Source of the DNA: Chamaelirium japonicum
Lineage: Eukaryota; Streptophyta; Magnoliopsida; Liliales; Melanthiaceae
Direction of reading: 5' to 3'
Assembly (NCBI GenBank): GCA_947650365.1
Contig: CANTAL010000138.1
Span: forward strand, 62,001-126,000
Length of the DNA: 64,000 bases
Shown here: positions 1 to 64,000 of the stretch, piece by piece
Layout of the letters: each line of letters starts with the position of its first letter
Numbering within the stretch: position 1 is the stretch's first letter
The notes under the pieces: model-generated
Database searches by the model: none
Told to the model about the DNA's origin: nothing
Seen by the model: the letters and a program-made list of their open reading frames with translations, nothing else
Translations under genes and position numbers: made by a program

Positions 1-3000
1 ATTCATTCGTATATTCCATTCTAATTCATTAGCACGATCCATGCTAATGAATTAGAATGGATCGTACGATCCAATCTAATTCATTCATACGATCCATTCT
101 TACTCATTCGTATGATCCATTCTAATTCAATCGTACGATCCATTCTAATTCCTTCGTACGATCCATTCTAATTCATCTGTACGATCCATTCTAATTCCTT
201 CGTACGATCCATTCTAATTCATTCGTACAATCTATTCTAATTCATTCGTACGAATGGATACATTTGTGTGAATGAATTAGAATGGATCGTACGAATGAGT
301 AAGAATGGATCGTACGAATGAAATAGAATGGATTGCACGAATGAATTAGAATTGATCGTACGAATGAATTAGAATGGATCGTGCGAATGAATTAGAATGG
401 ATCGTACGAATGAACTAGAATGGATACATTCGTGCGAATGAATTAGAATGGATCGTACGAATGAATCAGAATGGATCGTACGAATGAATTAGAATGGATC
501 TTACGAATGAATTAGAATGGATCGTACGAATGAATTAGAATGGATCGTACGAATGAATTAGAATGGATACATTCGTGCGAATGAATTAGAATGGATCGGA
601 CGAATGAATTAGAATGGATCGTACGAATGAATTAGAATGGATCAAATGAATGAATTAGAATGGTTACATTCATGCGAATGAATTAGAATGGATCGTACGA
701 ATGGATTAGAATGGATCGTACGAATGGATTAGAATGGATACATTCGAGCGAATGAATTAGAATAGATCGTACGAATGAATTAGAATGGATCATACGAATG
801 GATTAAAATGGATCCTACGAATGGATTAGAATGGATACCTTTGTGCATATGAATTAGAATGGATCGTACGAATGAATTAGAATGGATCATATTAATGAAT
901 TAGAATGGATCGTACGAATGAATTAGAATGGATCGTACGAATGAATTAGAATGGATGCATTCGTGCGAATGAATTAGAATGGATACATTCGTGCGAAAGA
1001 ATTAGAATAGATCGTATGAAGGAATTAGAATGGATCCTATGAATGAATTAGAATGGATCGTGCAAATGAATTAGAATGGATCGTACGAATGAATTAGAAT
1101 GGATCGTGCTAATGAATTAGAACTGATCGAACGAATGAATTAGAATGGATACATTCATGCGAATGAATTAGAATAGGTCGGACGAATGAATTAGAATGGA
1201 TCGTACGAATGAGGAAGAATGGATCGTACGAATGAAATAGAATAGATCGTAAGAATGAATTAGAATGGATCGTACGAAGGAATTAGAATGGATCAAACGA
1301 ATGAATTAGAATGGATATATTCGTGCAAATGAATTAGAATGGATCGTGCGAATCCATTAGACTGGATCGTGCGAATGAATAAGAATGGATCATACGAATA
1401 AATTAGAATGGAACGTACGAATTAATTAGAATGCATACATTCGTGCGAATGAATTAGAATGGATTGTATGAACGAATTAGAATGTATCGTACGAATGAAT
1501 TAGAATGGATCATACGGATTAATTAGAATGGATCATACGAATGAATTAGAATGGATCGTACGAATGAATTAGAATGGATCGTACGAATGAACTAGAATGG
1601 ATCGTACGAATGAACTAGAATGGATACATTCGTGCAAAAGAATTAGAATGGATCGTACGAATGAATTAGAATGGATCGTACGATTCATTTTAATTCATTC
1701 GTACGATCTATTCTAATACATTCGTACGATTCATGCTAATTCATTCGCACGATCCATTCTAATTCATTCGTACGATCCATTCTTATTCATTCATACGATC
1801 CATTCTAATTCAATCGTATGATCAATTCTAATTCATTCGCACAAATGTATCCATTCTACGTCATTCGTACGATCCATTCTAATTCATTCGCACGATCCAT
1901 TCTAATTCATTCGTACGATCCATTCTAATTCTTTCATACGATCCATTCTAATTCATTCGTACAATCCATTCTAATTCATTCACAGGATCCATTCTAATTC
2001 ATTCGTACGATCCATTCTAATTCATTCATAGGATCCATTCTAATTCATTCGTACGATCCATTCTAATTCATTCGCACAAATGTATCCATTCTAATTCATT
2101 CGTACGATCCATTCTAATTCATTCACACGATCCATTCTAATTCATGCGTACGATCCATTCTAATTCATTCGCATGATCCATTCTAATTCATTCGTACGAT
2201 CCATTCTAATTCATTCATACGATCCATTCTAATTCATTCGTACGATCCATTCTAATTCATTCGCACAAATGTATCCATTCTAATTCATTCGTACGATCCA
2301 TTCTAATTCATTCACATGATCCATTCTAATTCATTCGTACGATCCATTCTAATTCATTCGCACAAATGTATCCATTCTAATTCATTCGTACGATCCATTC
2401 TAATTCATTCACATGATCCATTCTAATTCATTCGTACGATCCATTCTAATTCATTCCCACGATCCATTCTAATTTATTCGTACGATCCATTCTAATTCAT
2501 TCGTAAGATCTATTCTAATTCATTCGCACGAATGTAACCATTCTAATTCATTCATACGATTCATTCTAATTCATTCGTATGAGCTATTCTAATTCATTCG
2601 TACGATCCATTCTAATTCATTCGTACGATCCATTGTAATTCATTCATACAATCCATTTAGATTCCTTCGCACAAATGTATCCATTCAAATTCATTCGTAC
2701 GATCCAGTCTAATTCATTCGTACGATCCATTCTAATTCATTCGCACGAATATATCCATTCTAATTCTTTCGTACGATGCATTCTAATTCATTCGTACGAT
2801 CCATTCTAATTCATTCATTTGATCTATTCTAATTCATTCGTACGATCCATTCTAATTCATTCGTCCGATCCATTCTAATTCATTCGCACGAATGTATCCA
2901 TTCTAATTCATTCGTATGATCCATTCTAATTCATTCGTACGATCCTTTCTAATTCATTCGTAAGATCCATTCTAATTCATTCGCACAATCCATTCTAATT

Positions 3001-6000
3001 CATTCGCGCGAATGTATCCATTCTAGTTCATTCGTACGATCCATTCTAATTCATTCGTACGATCCATTCTAATTCATTCGCACGATCTATTCAAATTCAT
3101 TCTTACGATCAATTCTAATTCATTTGCACGAATGCATCCATTCTAATTCGTTTGTACGATCCTGAATTAGAATGGATCGTACGAATAAATGGATCGTGCG
3201 AATGAACTAGAATGGAATATACGAATGAATTAGAATGGATCATACGAATTAATTAGAATGGATCATACGAATGAATTATAATGGATTGTACGAATGAATT
3301 AGAATGGATCGTACGAATGAATTAGAATGGATCGTGCGAATGAATTAGAATGGATCGTACGAATGAATTAGAATGGATACATTTGTGCGAATGAATTAGA
3401 ATGGATCGTACGAATGAATTAGAATGGATCGTACGAATGAATTAGAATGGATCGTGCGAATGAATTAGAATGGATCGTACGAATGAATTAGAATGGATCG
3501 TGTGAAAGAATTAGAATGGATCGTACAAATGAATTAGAATGGATCGTGCGAATGAATTAGAATGGATTGTACGAATGAATTAGAATGGATACATTCGTGC
3601 GAATGAATTAGAATGGATCGGACGAATGAATTAGAATGGATCGTACGAATGAGTAAGAATGGATCGTACGAATGAACTAGAATAGATCGTACGAATTAAT
3701 TAGAATGTATCGTACGAAAGAATTAGAATGGATCGTATGAATGAATTAGAATCGATATATTCGTGCAAATGAATTAGAATGGATCGTATGAATGTATTAG
3801 AATGGATCGTATGAGTGAATTAGAATGGATCGTACGAATGAATTAGAATGGATCGTATGAATGAATTAGAATGGATACATTCGTGTGAATCAATTAGAAT
3901 GGATCGTATGAATGAATTAGAATAGATTTTGTGAATGAATTAGAACTGATCGTACGAAAAAATTAGAATGGATACATTCGTGCGAATGAATTAGAATGGA
4001 TTGTATGAATGAATTAGAATGGATCCTATGAATGAATTAGAATGGATCGTACGAATGAATTAGTATGGATACATTCGTGCGAATGAATTAGAATTGATCG
4101 TACGAATGAATTAGAATGGATCGTGCGAATGAATTAGAATGGATCGTACGAATGAATTAGAATGGATACATTCGTGCGAATGAATTAGAATGGATACATT
4201 CGTGCGAAAGAATTAGAACAGATCGTATGAATGAATTAGAATGGATTGTATGAATGAATTAGAATGGATCGTATGAATGAATTAGAATGGATCGTGCGAA
4301 TGAATTCGAATGGATCGTACGAATTCATTCTAATTCATTCATACAATCCATTCTAATTCTTTGACACGATCCATTCTAATTCATTCGTACGTTCCATTCT
4401 AATTCATTCGCACGATCCATGCTAATTCATTCGTTCGATCAATTCTAATTCATTAGCACGATCCATTCTAATTCATTCATACGATCCATTCTAATTCATA
4501 TGCACAAAGGTATCCATTCTAATCCATTCGTAGGATCCATTCTTATCCATTCGTACGATCCATTCTAATTCATTCATACGATCCATTCTAATTCATTCGC
4601 TCGAATGTATCCATTCGTACGATCCATTCTAATCCATTCGTACGATCCATTCTAATTCATTCGCATGAATGTAACCATTCTAATTCATTCATTTGATCCA
4701 TTCTAATTCATTCGTACGATCCATTCTAATTCATTCGTCCGATCCATTCTAATTCATTCGCACGAATGTATGCATTCTAATTCATTCGTACGATCCATTC
4801 TAATTCATTCGTACGATCCATTCTAATTCATTCGTAAGATCCATTCTAATTCCTTCGTACGATCCATTCTAATTCATTCGTACGATCCATTCTAATTCAT
4901 TCGCACGAATGTATCCATTCTAATTCATTCGTACAATCCATTCTACTTCATTCGTACTATCCGTTCTAATTCACTCATACGATCCATTCTAATTCATTCA
5001 TACGATCCATTCTAATTCATTTGCACGAATATATCCATTCTAATTCATTAGTACGATCTATTCTAATTTCTTCGTACGATCCATTCTAATTCCTTCGTTC
5101 GATCCATTCTAATTCCTTCGTACGATCCATTCTATTTCATTCGTATGATCCATTCTAATTTCTTCGTACGATCCATTCTGATTCCTTCGTATCCATTCTA
5201 ATTCACTCATACGATCCATTCTAATTCATTCGTACGATCCACTCTAATTCATTTATACAATCCATTCTAATTCATTCGCACGAATGTATCCATTCTAATT
5301 CATTCGTACGATCGGTTCTAATTCATTCACAAAATCTATTCTAATTCATTCATACGATCCATTCTAATTCATTCACATGAATGTATCCATTCTAATTCAT
5401 TCATACGATCCATTCTAATTCATTCGTACGATCCATTCTAATTCACTCATACGATCCATTCTAATACATTCATACGATCCATTCTAATTCATTTGCACGA
5501 ATATATCAATTCTAATTCATTCGTACGATCCATTCTAATTTTTTCGTACGATCCATTCTAATTCATTCGTACGATCTATTCTAATTCATTCGTCCGATCC
5601 ATTCTAATTCATTCGCACGAATGTATCCATTCTAATTTATTCGTACGATCCATTCTAATTCATTCGTACGATCCATTCTAATTCATTCATTTGATCCATT
5701 CTAATTCATTCGTACGATCCATTCTAATTCATTCGTCTGATCCATTCTAATTCATTCGCACGAATGTATCCATTCTAATTCATTCGTATGATCCAGTCTT
5801 ATTCATTCGTACGATCCATTCTAATTTATTCGTACGATCCATTCTAATACATTCGTACGATCCATTCTAATACATTCGCACGAATGTATCCATTCTAGTT
5901 CATTCGTACGATCCATTCTAATTCATTCGTACGATCCATTCTAATTCATTCGCACGATCCATTCTAATTCATTCGTACGATCAATTCTAATTCATTCGCA

Positions 6001-9000
6001 CGAATGTATCCATTCTAATTCATTCGTACGATCCTGAATTAGAATGGATCGTACGAATGAATTAGAATGGATACCTTTGTGCATATGAAATAGAATGGAT
6101 CGTACGAATGAATTAGAATGGATCATATTAATGAATTAGAATTGATCGTACGAATGAATTAGAATGGATACATTCGTGCGAATGAATTAGAATGGATCGT
6201 GCGAATCAATTAGACTGGATCGTGCGAATGAATAAGAATAGATCATACGAATGAATTAGAATGGATCGTACGAATTAATTAGAATGGATACATTCGTGCG
6301 AATGAATTAGAATGGATTGTATGAATGAATTAGAATGGATCGTACGAATGAATTAGAATGGATCATACGAATTAATTAGAATGGATCGTTCCAATGAATT
6401 AGAATGGATCGTACGAATGAATTAGAATGGATACATTCGTGCGAATGAACTAGAATGGATCGGACGAATGAATTAGAATAGATCGTACGAATGAATTAGA
6501 ATGGATCGTACGAAGGAATTAGAATGGATCGTACGAATGAATTAGAATGGATATATTCGTGCAAATGAATTAGAATGGATCGTATGAATGTATTAGAATG
6601 GATACATTCGTGCGAATGAATTAGACTGGATCGGACGAATGAATTTGAATAGATCGTACGAATGAATTAGAATGGATCGTACGAAGGAATCAGAATGGAT
6701 CGTACGAATGAACTAGAATGGATTAGAATGCATCGTACGAATGAATTAGAATGGATCGTATGAATGAATTAGAATGGATCGTATGAATGAATTAGAATGG
6801 ATCGTATGAATGAATTAGAATGGATCGTACGAATGAATTAGAATGGATCGTGCGAATGAATTAGAATGGATCGTAGGAATGAATTAGAATGGATCGTACG
6901 AATGAACTAGAATGGATACATTCGTGCGAATGAATTAGCATGGATCGTACGAATGAATTAGAATGGATCGTACGAATGAATTAGAATGGATCGTACGAAT
7001 GAACTAGAATAGATACATTCGTGCGAATGAATTAGAATGGAACGTACGAATGAATTAGAATGCATCGTACGAATGAATTAGAATGGATCTTACGAATGAA
7101 TTAGAATGGATCGTACGAATGAATTAGAATGGATCTTACGAATGAATTAGAATGGATTGCACGAATGAATTAGAATGGATCGTACGAATGAATTAGAATG
7201 GATACATTCATGCGAATGACTTAGAATGGATCGGACGAATGAATTAGAATGGATCGTACGAATGAATTAGAATGGATCGTACGAATAAATTAGAATCGAT
7301 ACATTCGTCCGAATGAATTAGAATGGATCATACGAATGAGTAAGAATGGATCGTACGAATGAAATAGAATAGATCGTATAAGTGAATTAGAATGGATTGT
7401 ATGAATGAATTAGAATGGATCGTATCAATGAATTAGAATGGATCGTGCGAATGAATTCGAATGGATCGTACGAATTCATTCTAATTCATTCATACAATCC
7501 ATTCTAATTCTTTCACACGATCTATTCTAATTCATTCGTAGGATCCATTCGAATTGATTCGTACAATCCATTCTATTTCATTTGTACGATCCATTCTTAC
7601 TCATTCGTACGATCCATTCTAATTCCTTCGTATCCATTCTAATTCACTCATACGATCCATTCTAATTCATTCATACGATCTATTCAAATTCATTCATACA
7701 ATCCATTCTAATTCTTTCACACGATCCATTCTAATTCATTCATATGATCCATTCTAATTCATTCGCACAATCCATTCTACTTCATTCATACGATCCATTC
7801 TTACTCATTGGTACGATCCATTCTAATTCATTCGCACGAATGTATCCATTCTAATTCATTCGTACGAATCCATTGTAATTCATTCGTACAATCTATTCTA
7901 TTTCATTCGTAAGATCCATTCTTACTCATTCGTATGATCCATTCTAATTCATTCGGACGAATGTATCCATTCTAATTTATTTGTACGATCCATTCTAATT
8001 CATTCGTACGATCCATTCTAATTCATTCGTACGATCCATTCTAATTCATTCGTCCGATCCATTCTAATTCATTCACACGAATGTATCCACTCTAATTCAT
8101 TCGTACGATCCATTCTAATTCATTCGTAAGATCCATTCTAATTCATTCATACGATCCATTCTAATTCATTCGTACGATCCATTCTAATTCATTCGTACAA
8201 TCCATTCTAATTCATTCGTACGATCCATTCTAATTCATTCGCACAAATGTATCCATTCTAATTCGTTCATACGATCCATTCTAATTTATTCGTACGATCC
8301 ATTCTAATTCATTCGTAAGATCCATTCTAATTCATTCGTACGATCCATTCTAATTCATTCGTACGATCCATTCTAATTCATTCGCACGAATGTATCCATT
8401 CTAGTTCATTCGTACGATACATTCTAATTCATTCATACGATCCATTCTAATTCATTCGCACGATCCATTCTAATTCATTCGTACGATCCATTCTAATTCA
8501 TTCATACGATCCATTCTAAATCATTCGTACGATCCATTCTAATTAATTCGCACAAATGTATCCATTCTAATTAATTCGCACGATCTGTTCTTATTCATTC
8601 GCACAATCCATTCCAATTCATTCGCACGAATGTATCCATTCTAATTCATTCGTAAGATCCATTCTAATTCATTCGTACGATCCATTCTAATTCATTCGTA
8701 TGATCCATTCCAATTAATTCGTATGATCCATTCTAATTCACTCATACGATCCATTCTAATACATTCATACGATCCATTCTAATTCATTTGCACGAATATA
8801 TCCATTCTAATTCATTCGTACGATCTATTCTAATTCCTTCGTACGGTCCATTCTAATTTATTCGTACGATCTGTTCTAATCCATTCGTATGATCTATTCT
8901 AATTCATTCGTACGATCCATTCTAATTCCTTTGTACGATCCATTCTAATTTATTCGTACGATTCATTCTAATTCATTCGTACAATCTATTCTAATTCATT

Positions 9001-9003
9001 CGT
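1..9003. repeat. Satellite orientation map, large alternating blocks
   Basis: Block borders, good to about 5-10 bp: minus 1-249, plus 250-1679, minus 1680-3162, plus 3163-4323, minus 4324-6034, plus 6035-7474, minus 7475-9003. The pair minus-then-plus ending at 4323 and the pair ending at 7474 have the same entry junction (ACGATCC joined to TGAATTAG) and the same exit junction (centred on GAATTC). They therefore look like two copies of a composite unit of about 2.9-3.2 kb. The segment 2454-2810, with marks such as CATTCCCACG and a GTAACC variant of the 28-bp unit, recurs at 12537-12895 and 32548-32970. Confidence 0.85.
15..61. repeat. Satellite hairpin cassette, copy 1
   Basis: Perfect inverted repeat: left arm TCCATTCTAATTCATTAGCA at 15-34, 7-nt loop CGATCCA, right arm at 42-61 fully complementary to the left. 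Confidence 0.9.
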
Positions 9004-12000
9004 ACGAATAGATACATTCGTGTGAATTAATTAGAATGGATCGTACGAATGAGTAAGAATGGATCGTACGAATGAAATAGAATGGATTGCACGAATGAAT
9101 TAGAATGGATCGTACGAATGAATTAGAATGGATCGTGTGAAAGAATTAGAATGGATTGTATGAATGAATTAGAATGGATCGTACGAATGAATTAGAATGG
9201 ATACATTCGTGCGAATGAATTAGAATGGATCGTCCGAATGAATTAGAATGGATCGTACGAATGAATTAGAATGGATCGTACGAATGAAATAGAATAGATT
9301 GTACGATTGAATTAGAATGGATCCTACGAATGAATTAGAATGGATCGTGTGAAAGAATTAGAATGGATTGTATGAATGAATTAGAATGGATCGTATGAAT
9401 GAATTAGAATGGATTGCGCGAATGAATTAGAATGGATCGTGCGAATGAAATACTATGGATACAAATGAAATAGAATGAATCATACGAATGAATTAGAATG
9501 ACGATCCATTCTTACTCATTCGTATGATCCATTCTAATTTATTCGCACGAATGTATCCATTCTAATTCATTTGTACGTCTAATTCATTCGTACGGTCCAT
9601 TCTAATTCAATCGCACAATCCATTCTATTTCATTCGTACGATCCATTCTTACTCATTCGTATGATCCATTATGGATACATTCGTGCGAACGAATTAGAAT
9701 GGATCATACGAATGAGTAAGAATGGATCGTACGAATGAAATAGAATGGATTGTTCGAATGAATTAGAATGGATCGTACGAATGAATTAGAATGGATCGTG
9801 TGAAAGAATTAGAATGGATTGTATGAATGAATTAGAATAGATCGTATGAATGAATTAGAATAGATCGTACGAATGAATTAGAATGGATCGTACGAATGAA
9901 TTAGAATGGATCGTAAGAATGAATTAGAATGGATACATTCGTTCGAATGAATTAGAATGGATACATTCATGCGAAAGAATTAGAATAGATCGTATGAATG
10001 AATTAGAATGGATCCGATGAATGAATTAGAATGGATCGTGCGAATGAATTAGAATGGATCGTACGAATGAATTAGAATTGATCGAACGAATGAATTAGCA
10101 TGGATCGTGCTAATGAATTAGAATGGAATGTACGAACGAATTAGAATGGATCGTGTGAAAGGATTAGAATGGATTGTATGAATGAATTCATACGATCCAT
10201 TCGAATTCATTCGCACGATTCATTCTAATTCATTCATACGATCCATTCTAATTCATTCATACAATCCATTCTAATTCTTTCACACGATCCATTCTAATTC
10301 ATTCGTAGGATCCATTCTAATTCATTCGTACAATCTATTCTATTTCATTCGTACGATCCATTCTTACTCATTCGTATGATCCATTCTAATTCAATCGGAC
10401 GAGTGTATCCATTCTAATTTATTCGTACGATCCATTCTAATTCATTCGTACGATCCATTCTAATTCATTCGTACGATCTATTCTAATTCATTCGTACGAT
10501 CCATTCTAATTTCATTCGTACGATCCATTCTAATTCATTCGCTCGAATGTATCCATTCGTACGATCCATTCTAATCCATTCGTACGATCCATTCTAATTC
10601 ATTCGCATGAATGTAACCATTCTAATTCATTCATTTGATCCATTCTAATTCATTCTTACGATCCATTCTAATGCATTCGTCCGATCCATTCTAATTCATT
10701 CGCACGAATGTATCCATTCTAATTCATTCGTATGAGTGAATTAGAATGGATCGTACGAATGAATTAGAATGGATCGTATGAATGAATTAGAATGGATACA
10801 TTCGTGTGAATGAATTAGAATGGATCGTACGAATGAATTAGAATAGCTCATACGAATGAATTAGAATGAATCGTATGAATGAATTAGAATGGTTACATTC
10901 GTGCGAATGAATTAGAATAGATCGTACGAATGAATTAGAATGGATCCACCGAATGAGTTCGAATGGATCATACGAATGAATTAGAATGGATTGTACGAAT
11001 GAATTAGAATGGATTGTGCGAATGAATTAGAATGGATCGTATGAATGAATAAGAATGGATCGTACGAATGAATTAGAATGGATCGTGCGAATGAATTAGC
11101 ATGAATCGTACGAATGTATTAGAATGGATCGTACGAACAAATTAGAATGAATCATACGATCCATTCTAATTCAATCGTCCGATCCATTCTAATTCATTCG
11201 CATGAATGTATCCATTCTAATTCATTCGTACAATCCATTCTATTTCATTCGTACGATCCATTCTTACTCATTCGTAAGATCCATTCTAATTCATTCGTAT
11301 GATCCATTCTAATTCATTCATACGATCCATTCTAATTCATTCGTACGATCCATTCTAATTCATTCGTATGATCCATTCTAATTCATTCGCACGATCCATT
11401 CTAATTCATTCATACGATCCATTCAAATTCATTCATACGATCCATTCTAATTCATTCCTACAATCCATTCTAATTCATTCGCCCGATCCATTCTAATTCA
11501 TCCATACGATCCATTCTATTCGAATGGATCATGCGATCCATTCGAATTCATTCGCACGATCCATTCTAATTCATTTATACGATCCATTCTAATTCATTCA
11601 TAGAATGCATTCTAATTCTTTCACACGATCCATTCTAATTCATTCGTACGATCCATTCTAATTCATTCGTACAATCCATTCTATTTCATTTGTACGATCC
11701 ATTCTTACTCATTCGTATGATCCATTCTAATTCATTCATACGATCCATTCTAATTCATTTATACGATCCATTCTAATTCATTCGTACAATCCTTTCTATT
11801 TCATTCGTACGATCCATTCTTACTCATTCGTATGATCCATTCTAATTCATTCGCATGAATATATCCATTCTAATTCATTCATACAATCCATTCTAATTCA
11901 TTCCGTACGATCCATTCTAATTCATTCGTACGATCGTACGAATGAATTAGAATGGATCGTACGAATGAATTAGAATAGATTGTGCGAATGAATTAGAATG

Positions 12001-13954
12001 GATCGTACGAATGAATTAGAATGGATCGTACGAATGAATTAGAATGGATCGTACGAATGAATTAGAATGGATCGTACGAATGAATTAGAATGGATCATAC
12101 GAATGAATTAGAATGGATCGTACGAATGAATTAGAATGGATCGTACGAATAAATTAGAATGGATACATTCGTCCGAATGAATTAGAATGGATCATAGGAA
12201 TGAGTAAGAATGGATCGTACGAATGAAATAGAATAGATTGTACGAATGAATTAGAATGGATCCTATGAATGAATTAGAATGGATCGTGTGAAAGAATTAG
12301 AATGGATTGTATGAATGAATTAGAATGGATCGTATGAATGAATTAGAATGGATCGTGCGAATGAATTCGAATGGATCGTACGAATTCATTCTAATTCATT
12401 CATACAATCCATTCTAATTCTTTCACACGATCCATTCTAATTCATTCATACGTTCCATTCTAATTCATTAGCACGATCCATGCTAATTCATTCGTTCGAT
12501 CAATTCTAATTCATTAGCACGATCCATTCTAATTCATTCCCACGATCCATTCTAATTTATTCGTACGATCCATTCTAATTCATTCGTACGATCTATTCTA
12601 ATTCATTCGCACGAATGTAACCATTCTAATTCATTCATACGATTCATTCTAATTCATTCGTATGCGCTATTCTAATTCATTCGTACGATCCATTCTAATT
12701 CATTTGTACGATCCATTGTAACTCATTCATACAATCCATTTAGATTCATTCGCACAAATGTATCCATTGAAATTCATTCGTACGATCTAGTCTAATTCAT
12801 TCGTACGATCCATTCTAATTCATTCGCACGAATATATCCATTCTAATTCTTTCGTACGATGCATTCTAATTCATTCGTACGATCCATTCTAATTCATTCG
12901 TACGATCCATTTACGAATGAAGTAGAATGGATCGTATGAATGAATTAGAATGGATACATTCGTGCGAATGAATTAGAATGGATCGTATGAATGAATTAGA
13001 ATAGATTGTGCGAATGAATTAGAATGGATCGTACGAATGAATTAGAATGGATACATTCGTGCGAATAAATTAGAATGGATCGTACGAATGAATTAGAATG
13101 GATCGTACGAATGAATTAGAATGGATCGTACGAATGAATTAGAATAGATTGCGCGAATGAATTAGAATGGATCGTGCGAATTAAATAGAATGGATACAAA
13201 TGAATTAGAATGGATCATAAGAAAGAATTAGAATGACGATCCATTCTTACTTATTCGTATGATCCATTCTAATTTATTCGCACGAATGTATCAATTCTAA
13301 TTCATTCGTACGTCTAATTCATTCGTACGGTCCATTCTAATTCATTCGCACAATCCATTCTATTTCATTCGTACGATCCATTCTTACTCATTCGTATGAT
13401 CCATTATGGATACATTCGTGCGAATGAATTAGAATGGATCATACGAATGAGTAAGAATGGATCGTACGAATGAAATAGAATGGATTGTGCGAGTGAATTA
13501 GAATGGATCGTACGAATGAATTAGAATGGATCGTGTGAAAGAATTAGAATGGATTGTATGAATGAATTAGAATAGATCGTATGAATGAATTAGAATGGAT
13601 CGTACGAATGAATTAGAATGGATCGTACGAATGAATTAGAATGGATCGTACGAATGAATTAGAAAGGATACATTCGTGCGAATGAATTAGAATGGATACA
13701 TTCATGCGAAAGAATTAGAATAGATCGTATGAATGAATTAGAATGGATCCTATGAATGAATTAGAATGGATCGTGCGAATGAATTAGAATGGATCGTACG
13801 AATGAATTAGAATGGATCGTGCTAATGAATTAGAATTGATCGAACGAATGAATTAGCATGGATCGTGCTAATGAATTAGAATGGAACGTACGAATGAATT
13901 AGAATGGATTGTGTGAAAGAATTAGAATGGATTGTATGAATGAATTAGAATAAA
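9004..13954. repeat. Satellite orientation map, fine mosaic
   Basis: The most finely shuffled part: plus 9004-9500, minus 9501-9670, plus 9671-10186, minus 10187-10731, plus 10732-11155, minus 11156-11933, plus 11934-12384, minus 12385-12910, plus 12911-13235, minus 13236-13405, plus 13406-13954. Blocks are 170-780 bp. The stretch about 9455-10190 is repeated at about 13185-13960 with constant spacing of 3,735 bp, including both internal switches and a short odd unit (TACGTCTAATTC). Confidence 0.82.
11904..11963. repeat. 60-bp perfect palindrome at an orientation switch
   Basis: Two 30-base arms meet without any spacer at 11933/11934, in the centre of CGTACGATCGTACG. The minus array on the left and the plus array on the right are exact complements over the 30 bases. 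The match ends at an extra C in the left array at 11903. Confidence 0.88.
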
Positions 13955-49315: not shown

Positions 49316-49341
49316 TCGGGCCACGGTAGGTCGCCGATTGC

Positions 49342-51760: not shown

Positions 51761-51768
51761 ACAACTTT

Positions 51769-51838
51769 CGGCACAAGGCCACACCAGTTTGTTGTCCACG
51801 TGGCGGCACAAGGCCATACCAGTTTGTTGTCCACGTGG
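51769..51838 (+). repeat. 35-bp tandem repeat, two copies
   Basis: Copies at 51769 and 51804 beginning CGGCACAAGGCCA and ending GTCCACGTGG. They differ at one base. Each carries a CACGTG word. Confidence 0.9.
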
Positions 51839-51961
51839 CAGTAGCGGGAGGCAGTTTGGGCAGAACACAGAGAGAAGAAGCACCAGTGGCCATGGGTCAC
51901 AGCCCGCCCGGGACCAACCCGTGGCTGTGGCTCGTAACCCGCCCGGAGACCCTACGCGAGG
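51839..51961 (+). other. Short unique spacer
   Basis: About 120 bp linking the 35-bp and 146-bp repeats. Its last part (CCGTGGCTGTGGCTCGTAACC) is loosely similar to the 146-bp unit. No coding content recognised. Confidence 0.5.
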
Positions 51962-53231
51962 TTGCTTGCGGCTGGTGCCCGCAGCTCGCCCGATGCAGAC
52001 CCTGATCGCGTGTGACAAGCTCGCACCGGAAGGAGATCGCTCGTGGCTGACGCTCCCGGCCCGCCCAGACCGCCCACGGCTGGTGCTCGCAGCTCGCCCG
52101 AGGCAGACCCTGACCGCGAGTGATGAGCTCACGCCGGAAGGAGATCGCTCGTGGCTGACACTCCCGGCCCGCCCAGCGTTTGTGAAATACTGACAGTCAA
52201 AGCTCTCGGCGCAGACCGCCCACGGCTGGTGCCCGCAGCTCGCCCGAGGCAGACCCTGACCGCGAGTGATGAGCTCACGCCGGAAGGAGATCGCTCGTGG
52301 CTGGCGCTCCCGGCCTGCCCAGCGTTTGTGAAATACTGACAGTCAAAGCTCTCGGCGCAGACCGCCCACGGCTGGTGCCCGCAGCTCGCCCGAGGCAGAC
52401 CCTGACCGCGAGTGATGAGCTCACGCCGGAAGGAGATCGCTCGTGGCTGACGCTCCCGGCCCGCCCAGCGTTTGTGAAATACTGACAGTCAAAGCTCTCG
52501 GCGCAGACCGCCCACGGCTGGTGCCCGCAGCTCGCCCGAGGCAGACCCTGACCGCGAGTGATGAGCTCACGCCGGAAGGAGATCGCTCGTGGCTGACGCT
52601 CCCGGCCCGCCCAGCGTTTGTGAAATACTGACAGTCAAAGCTCTCGGCGCAGACCGCCCACGGCTGGTGCCCGCAGCTCGCCCGAGGCAGACCCTGACCG
52701 CGAGTGATGAGCTCACGCCGGAAGGAGATCGCTCGTGGCTGATGCTCCCGGCCCGCCCAGCGTTTGTGAAATACTGACAGTCAAAGCTCTCGGCGCAGAC
52801 CGCCCACGGCTGGTGCCCGTAGCTCGCCCGAGGCAGACCCTGGCCGCATGTGACATGCTCGCATCGGAAGGAGATCGCTCGGGGCTGATGCTCGCGGCCC
52901 GCCCAGCGTTTGAGAAGTACTGGCAGTCAAAGCTCTCGGTGCAGACTGCCCGCGGCAGGCGCCCAAGCTCGCCCGAAGCAGACCCTGACCGCATGTGAGG
53001 AGCTCGCATCGGAAGGAGATTGCTCGGGGCTGATGCTCGTGGCCCGCCCAGTGTTTGAAAAGTACTGAGAGTCAAAACTCTCGACGCAGATCGCTCGCGG
53101 CAGGTGCCCGCAGCTCGCCCGAGGCAGACCCTGGCCGCATGTGACAAGCTCGTATCGGAAGGAGATCGCTCGTGGCTGACGCTCCCGGCCCGCCCAGCGT
53201 TGGTGAAATACTGGCAGTCAAAGTTCTCGGC
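51962..53231 (+). repeat. 146-bp tandem repeat array, about 8.7 copies
   Basis: Full copies start at 52065, 52211, 52357, 52503, 52649, 52795, 52941 and 53086 (145-146 bp each), after one partial copy from 51962. Each has GCTGGTGCCCGCAGCTCGCC, then GAAGGAGATCGCTCG, then GTGAAATACTGACAGTCAAA. The four copies 52211-52794 are nearly identical. The outer copies are more divergent, as expected if new copies arise by unequal exchange in the middle. The array occupies about a third of the internal region and has no coding pattern under constraint. Confidence 0.94.
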
Positions 53232-53358
53232 GCAGCCCGCCATCGCTACTATCTCCGCCCGAAACTGTTGCAGCAGACATTGATATCAGGCACATTACCA
53301 GGGTTAGGAGCTCGTTAAGACTCCTGAGCAAGCGTCGAGTTTCCTCGATCACTCCCTC
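53232..53358 (+). other. 3' unique end of the internal region
   Basis: About 130 bp between the last 146-bp copy and the polypurine tract. It starts with the first bases of another 146-bp copy (GCAGCCCGCC) and then departs. No gene recognised. Confidence 0.6.
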
Positions 53359-53367
53359 AGGAGGGGG
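53359..53367 (+). other. Polypurine tract
   Basis: AGGAGGGGG followed by TAA and then the 3' LTR. This is where plus-strand DNA synthesis is primed in LTR retrotransposons. GGGGGTA recurs a few bases later at the start of the LTR, but the target-site duplication fixes the LTR start at 53371. Confidence 0.75.
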
Positions 53368-53406
53368 TAATGTTGGGGGTAGCTGAAATCTGCCCTGGAG
53401 TTCGCA

Positions 53407-53425
53407 CCCCCCCCCCCCCCCCCCC
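53407..53425 (+). repeat. C19 homopolymer in 3' LTR
   Basis: Counterpart of 48513-48531, with the same length as given in this sequence. Confidence 0.9.
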
Positions 53426-53744
53426 GTGCTCACCAAATCACCTTGACAGGGAGCGAGATCCACATTAGGCTGAAAAGGCCTAGGCCAAGAGCACTCTTAG
53501 GAGCTCGCCTAAGCTCGATGGAGCTCGCCTGAGATCGCCCAGGAGCTCGCCAAGCTCACCCAGGAGCTCGCCTAAGCTCGCTCAGGAGCTCGCCCCGGAG
53601 CTTGCCAAGCTCACCCAGGAGCTCGCCTAAGCTCGCTCAGGAGCTCGCCCCGGAGTTCGCCAAGCCCGCGTGAGAACTCGCTGGCAGTGATAGCGGGAGT
53701 TAGACCGTCATGCATAACGAAGAGACCGGCATCGCGAACGCCCC

Positions 53745-53790
53745 TAGCTCGCGCAGGAGCTCGCCCCTAGCTCGCTCAGGAGCTCGCCCA
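53745..53790 (+). repeat. 23-bp tandem subrepeat in 3' LTR, two copies
   Basis: Copies start at 53745 and 53768. One copy has been lost here or gained in the 5' LTR since insertion. Confidence 0.87.
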
Positions 53791-54180
53791 AGCTCGCCAG
53801 AATTCCCCAGTTTATCGAAGAGGTTGCTCCCGCGAGGTCCGACTCTTGATAGATGTGGAAGAGAAGGCGGAGCAATGGAGGGCGAGCTCACCTTAGCTCC
53901 CCATCGGAGGTCGCCCACAATGTATGAGAGGGTGCCAGGTATCAAAACCCCACGGAAGCTACGTGGACAAACGTGGTCCACGGAAGCTCGCTCGAATCAG
54001 TTCGAGACCTCCCAGACTCGAACATTCCAGAATGGCCACCTGGCCACGACAAGAAAGATGCCCTCCCCCACTCAAACCGCCTGGCAGGCTTGACGACAGA
54101 ATGTCAGGGCGCGAATACCAAGGACTGTCAGACCCACGCGAGCCAGAACGTGGGGGTCTAGAAGGCCCTGGAGGAATCTC

Positions 54181-54186
54181 CACGTG
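54181..54186 (+). promoter_or_regulatory. G-box / ABRE-like site in 3' LTR
   Basis: CACGTG, same context as in the 5' LTR. In this position it could drive outward transcription into the satellite at 54417 and beyond. Confidence 0.5.
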
Positions 54187-54212
54187 TCGGGCCACGGTAG
54201 GTCGCCGATTGC

Positions 54213-54219
54213 TATAAAT
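54213..54219 (+). promoter_or_regulatory. TATA box of 3' LTR
   Basis: TATAAAT identical to the one in the 5' LTR. A transcript started about 30 bp downstream would leave the element after about 170 bp and read into minus-orientation satellite. Confidence 0.6.
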
Positions 54220-54416
54220 GCTCACCCCCAGGCTCCATAGTGGAGGTTCGAATTCCTTTTCCCTACCACTTTGGTATACCGCAGCTCGCCGTTGTGCCAC
54301 CGTGACTGACTTGAGCGTCGGAGGGTCTGCGCTCCTAAGGGAGCCAGCCGTTCTCACGTTCTCTTTTCTTTGTCTTGCAGGCAGCCCGCACGGACCAGCA
54401 AAAAATCCCCCGTACA

Positions 54417-54421
54417 CGATC
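54417..54421. repeat. Target-site duplication CGATC, right copy
   Basis: Direct match to 48472-48476 at the other edge of the element. Confidence 0.9.
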
Positions 54422-57400
54422 CATTCTAATTCATTCGTACGATCCATTCTAATTCATTCGCACGAATGTATCCATTCTAGTTCATTCGTACGATCCATTC
54501 TAATTCATTCGTACGATCCATTCTAATTCATTCGCACGATCCATTCTAATTCATTCGTACGATCCATTCTATTTCATTCATACGATCCATTCTAATTCAT
54601 TCGTACGATCCATTCAAATTTATTCGCACAAATGTATCCATTCTAATTCATTCGTACGATCCATTCTAATTCATTCGTACGATCCATTCTAATTCATTCG
54701 CACGAATGTATCCATTCTAATTCATTCGTACGATCCATTCTAATTCATTCGTACGATCCATTCTAATTAATTCGTATGATCCATTCTAATTCATTCGTAC
54801 GATCAATTCTAGTTCATTCGTACGATCCATTCTAATTCATTCGTACGATCCATTCTAATTCATTCGCACGATCCATTCTAATTCATTCATACAATCCATT
54901 CTAATTCTTTCACATGATCCATTCTAATTCTTTTGTACGATCCATTATAATTCATTCGTGCAATCCATTCTATTTCATTCTTACGATCCATTCTTACTCA
55001 TTCGTACGATCCATTCTAATTCATTCACACGAATGTATCCATTCGTACGAATGAATTAGAATAGATTGTACGAATGAATTAGAATGGATCGTACGAATGA
55101 ATTAGAATGGATCGTATGAATGAATTAGAATGGATCGTACGAATGAATTAGAATGGATCGTGCGAATGAATTAGAATGGATCGTGCGAATGAATTAGAAT
55201 GGATCGTTCGAATGAATTAGAATGGATCGTACGAATGAACTAGAATGGATACATTCGTGCGAATGAATTAGAATGGATCGTTCGAATGAATTAGAATGGA
55301 TCGTACGAATGAATTAGAATAGATCTTACGAATGAATTAGAATGGATCGTACGAATGAATTAGAATGGATCGTACAAATGAATTAGAATGGATACATTCG
55401 TGCGAATGAATTAGAATGGATCGGACGAATGAATTAGAATGGATCGTACGAATGAATTACAATGGATCAAATGAATGAATTAGAATGGTTACATTCATGC
55501 GAATGAATAAGAATGGATTGTACGAATGGATTAGAATGGATCGTACGAATGGATTAGAATGGATACATTCGAGCGAATGAATTAGAATGGATCGTACGAT
55601 TGAATTAGAATGGATCGTACGAATGGATTAGAATGGAACCTACGAATGGATTAGAATGGATACCTTTCTGCATATGAATTAGAATGGATCGTACGAATGA
55701 ATTAGAATGGATCATATTAATGAATTAGAATGGATCGTACGAATGAATTAGAATGGATACATTCGTGCGAATGAATTAGAATGGATCGTGCGAATCAATT
55801 AGACTGGATCGTGCGAATGAATAAGAATAGATCATACAAATGAATTAGAATGGATCGTACGAATTAATTAGAATGGATACATTCGTGCGAATGAATTAGA
55901 ATGGATTGCATGAATGAATTAGAATGGATCGTACGAATGAATTAGAATGGATCATACGAATTAATTAGAATGGATCATACGAATGAATTAGAATAGATTG
56001 TACGAATGAATTAGAATGGATCGTACGAATGAATTAGAATGGATACATTCGTGCGAATGAATTAAAATGGATTGTTCGAATGAATAAGAACAGATCGTGC
56101 GAATGAATTAGAATGGATCGTACGAATGAATTAGAATGGATCGGGCAAATGAATTAGAATGGATCGTACGAATGAATTAGAATGGATACATTTGTGCGAA
56201 TGAATTAGAATGGATCGTACGAATGAATTAGAATGGATCGTACGAATGAATTAGAATGGATCGTGCGAATGAATTAGAATGGATCGTACGAATGAATTAG
56301 AATGGATCATACGAATGAACTAGAATGGATACATTCGTGCGAATGAATTAGAATGGATCGTACGAATGAATTAGAATGGATCGTACGAATAAATTAGAAT
56401 GGATCTTACGAATGAATTAGAATGGATCGTACGAATGAATTAGAATGGATCGTACGAATGAATTAGAATGGATACATTCGTGCGAATGAATTAGAATGGA
56501 TCGGACGAATGAATTAGAATGGATCGTACGAATGAATTAGAATGGATCGTACGAATGAATTAGAATGGATCGTACGAATAAATTAGAATGGATACATTTA
56601 TCCGAATGAATTAGAATGGATCATACGAATGAGTAAGAATGGATCGTACGAATGAAATAGAATAGATTGTACGAATGAATTAGAATGGATCCTACGAATG
56701 AATTAGAATGGATCGTGTGAAAGAATTAAAATGGATTGTCTGAATGAATTCGAATGGATCGTATGAATGAATTAGAATGGATCGTGCGAATAAATTCGAA
56801 TGGATCGTACGAATTCATTCTAATTTTTTTATACAATCCATTCTAATTCTTTCACACGATCAATTCTAATTCATTCGTACGTTCCATTCTAATTTATTAG
56901 CACGATCCTTGCTAATTCATTCGTTCGATCAATTCTAATTCATTAGCACGATCCATTCTAATTCATTCGTACGATCCATTCTAATTCATTCGCACGATCC
57001 ATTCTAATTCATTCATAGGATCCATTCTAATTCATTCATACGATCTATTCTAATTCTTTCGCACGAATGTATCCATTCTAATTCATTCGCACGAATGTAT
57101 CCATTCTAATTCATTCGTACGATCCATTCTAATTCATTCGTACGATCCATTCTAATTCATTCATACGATCTATTCTAATTCATTCATACAATCCATTCTA
57201 ATTCTTTCACACGATCCATTCAAATTCATTCGTACGATCCATTCTAATTCATTCGCACAATCCATTCTATTTCATTCGTACGATCCATTCTTACTCATTG
57301 GTACGATCCATTCTAATTCATTCGCACGAATGTATCCATTCTAATTCATTCGTACGAATCCATTCTAATTCATTCGTACAATCCATTCTATTTCATTCGT

Positions 57401-58817
57401 ACGATCCATTCTTACTCATTCGTATGATCCATTCTAATTCATTCGCACGAATGTATCCATTCTAAATCATTCGTACGATCCATTCTAATTCATTCGTACG
57501 ATCCATTCTAAATCATTCATACAATCCATTCTATTTCATTCGTACGATCAATTCTAATTCATTAGCACGATCCATTCTAATTCATTCGCACAATCCATTC
57601 TAATTCATTCGTAATCCATTCTATTTCATTCGTACGATCCATTCTTACTCATTCGTATGATCCATTCTAATTCATTCGCACGAATGTATCCATTCTAATC
57701 CATTCGTACGATCCATTCGCATGAATGTAACCATTCTAATTCATTCATTTGATCCATTCTAATTCATTCGTACGATCCATTCTAATTCATTCGTCTGATC
57801 CATTCTAATTCATTCACACGAATGTATCCATTCTAAACCATTCATACGATCCATTCTAATTTATTCGTACGATCCATTCTAATTCATACGTAAGATCCAT
57901 TCTAATTCATTGGTACGATCCATTCTAATCCATTCGTATGATCCATTCTTACTCATTCGTACGATCCATTATGGATACATTCGTGCGAATGAATTAGAAT
58001 GGATCATACGAATGAGTAAGAATGGATCGTACGAATGAAATAGAATGGATTGTGCGAATGAGTTAGAATGGATCGTACGAATGAATTAGAATGGATCGTT
58101 TGAAAGAATTAGAATGGTGAATGAATTAGAATGGATACATTTGTGCGAATGAATTAGAATGGATCGTACGAATGAATTAGAATGGATCGTATGAATGAAT
58201 TAGAATGGATCGTACGAATGAATTAGAATGGATCGTACGAATGAATTAGAATGGATCGTACGAATGAATTAGAATGGATCGTACGAATGAATTAGAATGG
58301 ATCATACGAATGAGTAAGAATGGATCGTACGAATGAAATAGAATGGATTGTACGAATGAATTAAAATGGATCGTACGAATGAATTAGAATGGATCGTGTG
58401 AAAGAATTAGAATGGATTGTATGAATGAATTAGAATGGATCATATGAATGAATTAGAATGGATCGTGCGAATGAATTCGAATGGATCGTACGAATGAATT
58501 AGAATGGATCGTACGAATGAATTAGAACGGATATATTCGTGCGAATGAATTAGAATGGATACATTCGTCCGAAAGAATTAGAATAGATCGTATGAATGAA
58601 TTAGAATGGATCCTATGAATGAATTAGAATGGATCGTGCAAATGAATTAGAATGGATCGTAGGAATGAATTAGAATGGATCGTGCTAATGAATTAGAATT
58701 GATCGAACGAATGAATTAACATGGATCGTGCTAATGAATTAGAATGGAACGTACGAATGAATTAGAATGGATCGTGTGAAAGAATTAGAATGGATTGTAT
58801 GAATGAATTAGAATGAA
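54422..58817. repeat. Satellite orientation map 54422-58817
   Basis: Minus to 55046, plus 55047-56813, minus 56814-57970, plus 57971-58817. The minus block completes the interrupted 641-bp unit. The remainder mostly mirrors 36600-39090 in order and in junctions. Confidence 0.83.
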
Positions 58818-61800
58818 TTCGTACGATCCATTCGAATTCATTCGCACGATCCATTCTAATTCATTCATACGATCCATTCTAATTCATTCATACAATCCAT
58901 TCTAATTCTTTCACACGATCCATTCTAATTCATTCGTAGGATCCGTTCTAATTCATTCGTACAATCTATTCTATTTCATTCGTACGATCCATTCTTACTC
59001 ATTCATATGATCCATTCTAATTCCTTCGGACGAATGTATCCATTCTAATTTATTCGTACGATCCATTCTAATTCATTCGTACGATCCATTCTAATTCATT
59101 CGTCCGATCCATTCTAATTCATTCGTCCGATCCATTCTAATTCATTCGCACGAATGTATCCATTCTAATTCATTCGTACGATCCATTCTAATTCATTCGT
59201 ACGATCCATTCTAATTCATTCGTACGATCCATTCTAATTCATTCGTACGATCCATTCTAATTCATTCGCACGAATGTATCAATTCTAGTTTATTCGTACG
59301 ATCCATTCTACTTCATTCGTACGATCCATTCTAATTCATTCGCACGATCCATTCTAATTCATTCGTACGATCCATTCTAACTCATTCACAAAAATGTATC
59401 CATTCTAATTCATTCGTACGATCCATTCTAATTCATTCGCACGATCCATTCTAATTCATTCGTACGATCCATTCTAATTCATTCGCACGATCTGTACATA
59501 TTCATCCGCACAATCCATTCTAATTCATTCGCACGAATGTATCCATTCTAATTCATTCGTACGATCCATTCTAATTCATTCGTACGATCCATTCTAATTC
59601 ATTCGTACGATCCATTCTAATTCATTCGTATGATCCATTCTAATTAATTCGTATGATCCATTCTAATTCATTCGTACAATCCATTCTAATTCATTCATAC
59701 AATCCATTCTAATTCATTCGCACGAATGTATCCATTCTAATTAATTCGTACGATCCATTCTAATTCATTCGTATGATCTATTCTCATTCATTCGCACGAT
59801 CCAGTCTAATTGATTCGCACGATCCATTCTAATTCATTCGCACGAATGTATCCATTCTAATTCATTCGTATGATCCATTCTAATTCATTAATATGATCCA
59901 TTCTAATTCATTCGTACGATCCATTCTAATTCATATGCACAAAGGTATCCATTCTAATCCATTCGTAGGATCCATTCTAACCCATTTGTACGATCCATTC
60001 TAATTCATTCGTAAGATCCATTCTAATTCATTCGCTCGAATGTATCCATTCTAATCCATTCGTACGATCCATTCTAATCCATTCGTACGATCCATTCTAA
60101 TTCATTCGCATGAATGTAACCATTCTAATTCATTCATATGATCCATTCTAATTCATTCGTACGATCCATTCTAATTCATTTGTCCGATCCATTCTAATTC
60201 ATTCGCACGAATGTATCCATTCTAATTCATTCGTACGATCCATTCTAATTCATTCGTACGATCTATTCTAATTCATTCGTAAGATCCATTCTAATTTATT
60301 CGTACGATCCATTCTAATTCATTCGTACGATCCATTCAAATTCATTCGCACGAATGTATCCATTCTAGTTCATTCGTACGATCCATTCTAATTCATTCGT
60401 ACGATCCATTCTAATTCATTCGCACGATCCATTCTAATTCATTCGTACGATCAATTCTAATTCATTCGCACGAATGTATCCATTCTAATTCATTCGTACG
60501 ATCCATTCTGCACAAAGGTATCCATTCTAATCCATTCGTAGGATCCATTCTAATCCATTCGTACGATCCATTCTAATTCATTTGTACGATCCATTCTAAT
60601 TCATTCGCTCGAATGTATCCATTCTAATCCATTCGTACGATCCATTCTAATCCATTCGTACGATCCATTCTAATCCATTCGTACGATCCATTCTAATTCA
60701 TTCGCATGAATGTAACTATTCTAATTCATTCATTTGATCCATTCTAATTTATTCGTACGATCCTTTATAATTCATTCGTCCGATCCATTCTAATTAATTC
60801 GCACGAATGTATCCATTCTAATTCATTTGTACGATCCATTCTAATTCATTCGTACGATCCATTCTAATTCATTCGTAAGATCCATTCTAATTCATTCGTA
60901 CGATCGATTCTAATTCATTCGCATGAATGTATCCATTCTAGTTCATTCGTACGATCCATTCTAATTCATTCGTACGATCCATTCAAATTCATTCGCACGA
61001 TCCTTTCTAATTCATTCGTATGATTAATTCTAATTCATTCGCACGAATGTATCCATTCTAATTCATTCGTACGATCCTGAATTAGAATGGATCGTACGAA
61101 TGAATTAGAATGGATACCTTTGTGCATATGAATTAGAATGGATCGTACGAATGAATTAGAATGGATCATATTAATGAATTAGAATGGATCGTACGAATGA
61201 ATTAGAATGGATACATTCGTGCGAATTAATTAGAATGGATTGTACGAATGAATTAGAATGGATCGTACGAATGAACTAGAATGGATACATTCGTGCGAAT
61301 GAATTAGAATGGATCGTACGAATGAACTAGAATGGATACATTCGTGCGAATGAATTAGAATGGATCGTACGAATGAATTAGAATGGATCGTACGAATGAA
61401 TTAGAATGGATCTTACGAATGAATTAGAATGGATCGTACGAATGAATTAGAATGGATCGTACGAATGAATTAGAATGGATTATATTAATGAATTAGAATG
61501 GATCGTACGAATGAATTAGAATGGATACATTCGTGCGAATGAATTAGAATGGATCGGACGAATGAATTAGAATGGATCGTACGAATAAATTAGAATGGAT
61601 CAAATGAATGAATTAGAAAGGTTACATTCATGCGAATGAATTAGAATGGATCGTACGAATGGATTAGAATGGATCGTGCGAATGGATTAGAATGGATACA
61701 TTCGAGCAAATGAATTAGAATGGATCGTACGAATGGATTAGAATGGATACATTCGAGCGAATGAATTAGAATTGATCGTACGAATGGATTAGAATGGATC

Positions 61801-64000
61801 CTACGAATGGATTAGAATGGATACCTTTGTGCATATGAATTAGAATGGATCGTACGAATGAATTAGAATGGATCATTCTAGTTCATTCGTACGATCCATT
61901 CTAATTCATTCGTACGATCCATTCTAATTCATTCGCACGATCCATTCTAATTCATTCGTACGATCCATTCTAATTCATTCATACGATCCATTCTAATTCA
62001 TTCGTACGATCCATTCTAATTCATTCGCACATATGTATCCATTCTAATTCATTCGTACGATCCATTCTAATTCATTCGAATGATCCATTCTAATTCCTTC
62101 GTACGATCCATTCTAATTCTTTCACACGATCCATTCTAATTCATTCGTACGATCCATTCTAATTCATTCGCACTATCCATTCTAATTCATTTGTACGATC
62201 CATTCTAATTCATTCATACGATCCATTCTAATTCATTCGTACGATCCATTCTAATTCATTCGCACAAATATATCCATTCTAATTCATTCGTACGATCCAT
62301 TCTAATTCATTCGCACGATCCATTCTAATTCATTCGTACGATCCATTCTAATTCATTCGCACGATCTGTTCTTATTTATTCGCACAATCCATTCTAATTC
62401 ATTTGCACGAATGTATCCATTCTAATTCATTCGTACGATCCATTCTAATTAATTCGTATGATCCATTCTAATTCATTCGTACGATCCATTCTAATTCATT
62501 CGTACGATCCATTCTAATTCACTCATACGATCCATTCTAATACATTGATACGATCCATTCTAATTCATTTGCACGAATATATCCATTCTAATTCATTCGT
62601 ACGATCCATTCTAATTCCTTCGTACGATCCATTCTAATTCATTCGTACGATCCATTCTAATTCATTTGTACAATCTATTCTAATTTATTCGTACGAATGG
62701 ATACATTCGTGTGAATGAATTAGAATGAATCGTACGAATGAGTGAGAATGGATCGTACGAATGAAATAGAATGGATTGCACGAATGAATTAGAATGGATC
62801 GTACGAATGAATTAGAATGGATCGTGTGAAAGAATTAGAATGGATTGTATGAATGAATTAGAATGGATCGTACGAAGGAATTAGAATGGATCGTACGAAT
62901 GAATTAGAATGGATCGCACGAATGAATTAGAATAGATCGTACGAATGAATTAGAATGGATCGTACGAAGGAATTAGAATGGATTGTACGAATGAATTAGA
63001 ATGGATATATTCGTGCAAATGAATTAGAATGGATCGTATGAATGTATTAGAATGGATCGTATGAGTGAATTAGAATGGATCGTACGAATGAATTAGAATG
63101 GATCGTATGAATGAATTAGAATGGATACATTCATGTGAATCAATTAGAATGGATCGTATGAATTAATTAGAATAGATTTTGTGAATGAATTAGAACTGAT
63201 CGTACGAATGAATTAGAATGGATACATTCGTGCCAATGAATTAGAATGAATTGTATGAATGAATTAGAATGGATTGTATGAATAAATTAGAATGGATCGT
63301 ACGAATGAGTGAGAATGGATCGTACGAATGAAATAGAATGGATTGTATGAATGAATTAGAATGGATTGTACGAATGAATTAGAATGGATTGTATGAATGA
63401 ATTAGAATAGATCGTATGAATGAATTAGAATGGATCGTACGAATGAATTAGAATGGATCGTACGAAGGAATTAGAATGGATCATACGAATGAAATAGAAT
63501 GGATCGTACGAAGGAATTAGAATGGATCGTACGAATGAGTTAGAATGGATATATTCGTGCAAATGAATTAGAATGGATAGTATGAATGAATTAGAATGGA
63601 TCGTATGAGTGAATTAGAACGGATAGTACGAATGAAGTAGAATGGATCATATGAATGAATTAGAATGGATACATTCGTGCGAATGAATTAGAATCGATCG
63701 TATGAATGAATATGAATAGATTGTGCGAATGAATTAGAATGGATCGTACGAATGAATTAGAATGGATATATTCGTGCGAATAAATTAGAATGGATTGTAT
63801 GAATGAATTAGACTGGATCGTACGAATGAATTAGAATGGATCGTACGAATGAATTAGAATAGATTGCGCGAATGAATTAGAATGGATCGTACGAATGAAT
63901 TAGAATGGATCGTACGAATGAATTAGAATGGACCGAACGAAGGAATTAGCATGGATCGTACGAATGAATTAGAATGGATCGTACGATTGAATTAGAATGG
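58818..64000. repeat. Satellite orientation map 58818-64000
   Basis: Minus 58818-61077, plus 61078-61874, minus 61875-62692, plus 62693-64000. The part up to about 61850 follows 41065-44040. At 61875 it jumps abruptly to the 22490-type sequence (a TTCTAGTTC unit directly after a truncated GGATCA unit) and follows that to the window end. Confidence 0.83.

Follow-up and report, generated by a model that had tools for sequence, protein, structure and literature searches.

Strand Switches in a Centromeric Satellite Array of Chamaelirium japonicum Were Probably Multiplied Together With Larger Blocks

The Array and Its Strand Switches

The 64,000-nucleotide stretch C150:62001-126000 of the 1,518,659,071-base Chamaelirium japonicum assembly (hereafter the window) is, apart from a single long terminal repeat (LTR) retroelement, made up wholly of a tandem array of a 23-bp unit that changes strand at short intervals. 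Very probably, the joins between plus and minus tracts became fixed in cassettes and blocks that were then multiplied, so that the strand pattern was inherited with the block. About 383 of the roughly 2,448 units are of a 28-bp variant, which is the 23-bp unit with a 5-bp insert (ACATT) plus an A to G change. Strands were called with a profile Viterbi model of both units, which divides the array into 59 segments with 57 switches in 58 kb once the retroelement (5.94 kb) is set aside, or about one flip per kb. A sequence-only reading of the window had put the count at about 57 strand changes in about 58 kb, and the model calls exactly 57; all 41 flip positions given in that reading are no more than 8 bp from a switch of the model, and 37 of them no more than 3 bp. 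The two strands are balanced (29,399 plus bases and 28,662 minus bases) and the segments have a median length of 774 bp. Head-to-tail organization on one strand over long distances was not found in the window, the longest segment being 3,225 bp. Satellite sampled elsewhere in the genome gave 9 switches in 9.7 kb, or 0.93 per kb (34 small samples at chosen positions, many near known arrays, of which 23 were satellite), so the switch density of the window is not exceptional. Beyond the window (C150:126001-136000) the array passes into other sequence, the last 126 bases of that stretch (its positions 9875-10000) being non-satellite.

From these sequence features we conclude that the window belongs to a centromere unit of the holocentric plant Chionographis japonica, built of the satellite Chio1/Chio2. 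Chio1 and Chio2 are bound by CENH3, measure 23 and 28 bp, and are reported to differ by 5 bp and one substitution (PMC10264360). The window has the same unit lengths, the same 5-bp indel plus one substitution, the same intermingling of both units, and large arrays in which forward and reverse tracts are mixed, the last being tested and found here. The assignment draws on unit lengths, the difference between the variants and mixed orientation; the published monomers are given as a figure, and a search of the text of the papers for five stretches of the 23-bp unit gave no match.

Shared Junctions and Shared Flanks

Junctions were clustered across 219 switches, comprising the 57 of the window and 162 from seventeen 10-kb loci, two of which flank the window and fifteen of which were picked by their match to window positions 3000-3600. 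Star clustering with reverse complements merged (an earlier single-linkage run had chained unlike junctions) gave 32 classes, and the window switches fall into 20 of these. Eight classes have at least two members in the window and hold 45 of its 57 switches, while 49 window switches belong to a class also present at one or more of the seventeen loci, a figure inflated by the choice of loci. Clustered alone, the window yields 22 classes, and 42 of the 57 switches fall in those that have at least two members. Sixty runs of 57 random plus/minus joins taken from the same window averaged 50.0 classes (never fewer than 45), with an average of 12.6 switches in shared classes (never more than 21). The junctions therefore cluster far above random joins. 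The shared junctions that the sequence-only reading listed are real, but several of its classes are one junction read on opposite strands. The GAATTC-centred class and four of the six GAATTCGTACG switches, which had been kept apart, form the single junction K1 (the remaining two GAATTCGTACG switches, at 10188 and 45987, are singletons within the window). Likewise, CATTCGTACGAATGGATAC and CCATTCGTACGAATGAATT are both K4, and ACGATCC/TGAATTAG and the four TTCTAATTC/TGGATCG switches are both K2, two of these four having one base different at the join.

One class might arise twice at a hot spot, hence neighboring sequence was compared between same-class switches of the window, over flanks 25-225 bp from the join and with flanks containing another switch dropped. 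Identity averages 0.919 over 234 comparisons (pairs, which are not independent), with 56% at 0.92 or above, whereas 2,000 phase-matched control pairs average 0.854, with 4.45% at that level. Six classes are raised, namely K1 (0.924, 90 comparisons), K2 (0.918, 51 comparisons), K4 (0.917, 64 comparisons), K5 (0.923, 13 comparisons, 38% of them at 0.92 or above), K8 (0.947, 6 comparisons) and K10 (0.915, 3 comparisons only), which is the weakest of the six. The 40 of 57 switches in these classes are therefore best read as copied, a reading that is well supported overall and thinly so for K10. To this extent the earlier description of the flips as “not independent” stands, but it is too strong for those at the CGTACG palindrome (K3), which may be recurrent. 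Self-BLAST of the window was mostly uninformative because the matches listed are at about 83-85% for satellite stretches generally, with a few long pairs at 88-90%.

Cassettes and Blocks Across the Genome

Exact 25-mers of two junctions are abundant genome-wide, with 4,950 copies for K2 (2,405 and 2,545 on the two strands) and 3,283 for K8 (1,655 and 1,628), against 16 exact copies of a control junction made by displacing K2 by 3 bp (28 bases). Nine of these 16 copies lie on scaffold C5 at 40.86-42.33 Mb, two pairs being spaced 2,378 bp, and the control junction is apparently itself a rare flip that was copied locally on C5. K2 and K8 evidently travel together. They bound three short inverted cassettes in the window (Table 1), where the starts of the K8 and K2 patterns, each with at most one mismatch, are 167, 167 and 121 bp apart. 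Among the exact K8 copies listed for the first 17.9 Mb of C1, 18 of 64 have an exact K2 no more than 1 kb away, arranged on opposite strands; the spacing of these 18 pairs is either 167 bp (15) or 121 bp (3), with no other value, and two further pairings have other arrangements.

Larger blocks, of 3-10 kb and containing 3-10 switches, recur at 91-98% identity on other scaffolds, and 45 of the 57 switches lie inside one of 17 hand-picked matches off C150 (91-98%, 3.1-9.8 kb). The match lists are incomplete (24 of 26,356 candidates were scored for 1-9400 and 4 for 9401-19400, and the lists for 9401-19400 and the next two blocks omit the window's own place), so a missing match means little. Besides its full-length copies on C8, most of the block 1-9400 recurs from 225 onward on C11 (97%), from 483 onward on C7 (94%, two copies) and from 1634 onward on C3 (94%), and C8 has a 97% match to window positions 54416-61876. 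The order of blocks can also be kept. C11 at 68.715-68.789 Mb matches 225-9400, 29.6-48.5 kb and 54.4-60.2 kb in window order, the match to 19.4-26.3 kb lying elsewhere on that scaffold (68.595 Mb, 91%), and the minus strand of C8 at 1.196-1.147 Mb matches 1-9400, 19.4-22.5, 39.4-44.5 and 54.4-61.9 kb in order. Window positions 3000-3600, which span a switch, have at least 39 other matches of at least 585 of 601 bases (84-99%), found on 11 of the 12 chromosomes and on unplaced contigs (40 of 3,474 candidates scored). Capture of inversions in larger units, followed by amplification, is thus supported by shared flanks, genome-wide 25-mers and recurring multi-switch blocks. No single repeat unit containing both strands, as proposed alongside it, was found. 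Same-strand copies are spaced 33.4 kb on C60, 23.9 kb on C2, 26.2 kb on C8, 20.5 kb on C9, 29.7 kb on C1 and 11.4 kb on C5; a single fixed large unit is not supported, as spacings vary by place and flank sharing inside the window reaches background within about 1 kb.

Listed matches to window positions 11482-15282 (95-96%) lie on C2 at 91.7 Mb, on C7 at 20.06 Mb and on two unplaced contigs. These are unlike the matches to 1-9400, which are mostly near chromosome ends, and the window may be a mosaic. Scaffold C7 has one set of array blocks in two places, near 3.7 and near 4.5 Mb; they lie 746.8 kb apart with near-identical scores, which suggests either a large duplication or a duplicate made in assembly.

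Table 1. Features of the window. Positions are those of the window unless a scaffold is named; a slash marks the join.
Feature	Position	Strand or direction	Sequence	Further members or remarks
Satellite array	1-48476	alternating	23-bp unit GAATGAATTAGAATGGATCGTAC	with 28-bp variant
Satellite array, resuming past retroelement	54416-64000			
Junction K1	4325-4326	+ to -	GTACGAATTCATTCTAATTC	7476, 12386, 13955, 22003, 25468, 37729, 41065, 56815, 58818; 6 one way, 4 reversed
Junction K2	3162-3163	- to +	CGTACGATCC/TGAATTAG	6034, 19957, 28028, 28780, 35947, 40391, 43373, 61077
Junction K3	1685-1686	+ to -	palindrome GGATCGTACGATCC or near relative	11159, 40094
Junction K4	251-252	- to +	CATTCGTACGAATGGATAC	9005, 15307, 17383, 18823, 23309, 31090, 55039, 62694
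Junction K5	9670-9671	- to +	GATCCATT/ATGGATAC	13405, 30041, 38942, 57970
Junction K8	19792-19793	+ to -	CATTCGTGC/ACGATCC	28615, 35827, 42788
Junction K10	9500-9501	+ to -	GAATTAGAATG/ACGATCC	13235, 21679
Junction K11	10724-10725	- to +		42626
Inverted cassette, K8-K2 bounded, about 165 bp	19793-19957	-		second copy 28616-28780
Inverted cassette, K8-K2 bounded, 120-bp version	35828-35947			
Inverted cassette, K10-K5 bounded, 170 bp	9501-9670	-		second copy 13236-13405
Block, 7 switches	1-9400			full length on C8 twice, 98%, 26.15 kb apart
Block, 10 switches	29588-39400			92% on C11:68757041-68766925
Block, 7 switches	39401-48474			95% on C11:68766926-68775762, directly after the match to 29588-39400
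LTR retroelement	48477-54415	+		to 54416 if terminal CA counted

The retroelement has LTRs starting at 48477 and 53371, which differ by 8 mismatches and 23 gap columns over 1,068 alignment columns and contain AGCTCGCC-type repeats as well as a long run of C. The target-site duplication is probably CGATC, which flanks the element on both sides. A gag domain (PF03732, E 1.2e-05) was detected in the one frame searched, and the interior contains about eight tandem copies of a 146-bp unit (52066-53241). An empty site is present on the minus strand of C7, where window position 48476 corresponds to C7:4408854 and 54418 to C7:4408880, with a 27-bp overlap. Since the two sides of the insertion point meet on C7, the element most likely entered this copy of the array after its separation from the C7 block, the two blocks differing there by 6-9%.

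Origin of the Switch Pattern

Most probably, plus and minus tracts were joined at some past time, through events of a conjectural nature, and a limited set of joins became fixed parts of larger cassettes and blocks. Amplification would then have acted at a short scale, in which cassettes of about 0.1-1 kb were multiplied many times inside arrays, and at a long scale, in which blocks from several kb up to tens of kb were copied inside arrays as well as between the centromere units of different chromosomes. The strand pattern would pass on with the block like any sequence variant. Likely routes are unequal exchange, which would yield repeated spacings, and either ectopic break-induced replication or long-tract gene conversion, which would yield blocks common to several chromosomes. 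Contact between units might be provided by interphase chromocenters, in which the centromere units of Chionographis japonica are reported to cluster (PMC10264360).

Several points weigh against such copying, or limit its reach. The K3 flanks are not clearly above control (0.870, with none of 6 comparisons at 0.92 or above) and the single K11 comparison (0.805) falls below the control mean, giving no support to common descent, so not every shared class is demonstrated as copied. Across the six raised classes (leaving out switches close to the window ends and to the retroelement), the share of comparisons above the 95th percentile of the control is 42% at 25-225 bp, 16% at 425-625 bp and about 5% past 1 kb. 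With sharing at background within about 1 kb, most same-class pairs in the window lie outside any one intact large unit. The genome-wide control consists of one junction only, 12 of the 57 switches lie in none of the 17 picked matches (drawn from the incomplete lists), and the evidence is assembled sequence, not raw reads. At 1.519 Gb the assembly also exceeds the 1.368 Gb measured for the genome (PMC10264360), and some near-identical copies (C150 with C8, and the C7 pair) may therefore owe part of their similarity to being alternative haplotypes or duplicates. The 94-97% matches on several other chromosomes can hardly all be of this kind.

Could the same junctions instead have formed repeatedly? 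Palindromes in the monomer might direct independent flips to hot spots by hairpins or template switches, and the monomer does have short palindromes (TCGTACGA, AATT and GATC). Perfect CGTACG flips are common genome-wide (3,509 places plus to minus and 4,185 minus to plus), though neither has an exact copy in the window, and the K3 flanks are compatible with recurrence. Joins could be scored in 24 of the 32 classes (8 could not), and palindromes of at least 8 bp are weakly raised there, occurring in 10 of 24 classes, compared with 23% for random joins. Microhomology at the join is however absent from the two largest classes, K1 and K2 (overlap -1 and 0), and 5 of the 24 classes overlap by at least 2 bp, compared with 18% of random joins; with overlap not raised, microhomology was rejected as a general cause of the flips. 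The raised flanks of K1, K2, K4, K5, K8 and K10 and the recurrence of exact 167- and 121-bp distances between two different junctions make independent flips very unlikely. A hairpin origin is a possibility for K3 and the perfect flips only, and is not claimed generally. Inversions or chimeric joins made by the assembler might be suspected in a repetitive region, given that satellite arrays are hard to assemble and that the assembly exceeds the measured genome size. Yet multi-switch blocks recur on several scaffolds with 2-9% difference, which repeated mis-assembly is unlikely to yield, and switch density is equal in the window and in the small satellite samples elsewhere. The published assembly was moreover built from HiFi reads at 58.5x, and its authors likewise report mixed orientation (PMC10264360), all of which renders an artefact scarcely credible.

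Selection for dyad symmetry has been proposed for Tribolium, where hairpins or macro-dyads would help to define centromere chromatin. Conserved inversion sites and kilobase dyads are described in Tribolium madens (PMC13081366), and a hairpin between neighboring Chio monomers is predicted (PMC10264360). The arms across 41 switches with clear flanks are nevertheless no more alike than random tracts (mean 0.856, highest 0.91; control 0.854). Mirror subarrays or kilobase dyads of the Tribolium type were thus not found at these switches, and a mirror-image (fold-back) origin is rejected, although a fold-back older than the copying is possible. The Chama centromere arrays of Chamaelirium luteum are reported to be consistently oriented (PMC12722358), which suggests that flips are unneeded for a centromere, and copying alone accounts for the repetition; selection of this kind is improbable. 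Dispersal of the blocks by transposons or reinserted extrachromosomal circles is also unlikely, if less so. The genome paper proposes circle reinsertion, along with gene conversion or inversions, as a route of satellite spread, in its available text without a test (PMC10264360). The sole non-satellite stretch in the window is however the retroelement, which is absent from the matching C7 copy, and on C11 and C8 several blocks follow one another in window order over about 50-70 kb, an arrangement not readily obtained from one small circle.

Comparison With Known Centromere Satellites

Copying of flips within cassettes and blocks would make their junctions heritable markers of how a satellite spreads along chromosomes to form a holocentromere, and we tentatively suggest, as a possibility somewhat short of even, that centromere units on different chromosomes replace each other in long tracts, preferentially near chromosome ends. 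Such tracts might measure about 10 kb, perhaps 50-70 kb, and carry whole strand patterns. The listed matches to 1-9400 (about 2 kb or longer, at least 90%) fall in 12 chromosome places, 10 of them within 5 Mb of a scaffold end, a share that should be about a quarter with two of some eight units per chromosome being terminal; this pattern was seen post hoc, with matches within about 2 Mb merged and from the 24 scored candidates. Ancestral flip junctions each have a recognizable 25-mer, in two cases with thousands of copies, and would be traceable between units. With them one could measure directly how long the tracts exchanged between centromere units are, in which direction they move and which units are partners, information that base changes within the 23-bp repeat hardly provide.

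The inversion-rich orientation that the sequence-only reading called unusual is real, but alternating or mixed orientation of the Chio satellite has already been published, as has a higher-order repeat cluster, CL73 (PMC10264360; PMC12722358). What we did not find in print is the copying of flips: no analysis of Chio flip junctions, of junction classes or of flip-bearing blocks common to chromosomes was found in the accessible literature, supplements aside.

Two other systems invite comparison. The macro-dyad satellites of Tribolium madens also change strand within long arrays, and TmSat1 is described as having two predominant, conserved types of inversion site (PMC13081366). Those arrays mostly consist of two mirror subarrays, whereas the window has 57 flips in 58 kb, 20 junction classes and arms that are not mirror images. 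The Chama satellite of the sister species Chamaelirium luteum is, like the array in the window, a centromere satellite with higher-order structure; in contrast to it, Chama is reported to be consistently oriented and to keep its higher-order structure over hundreds of kb (PMC12722358).

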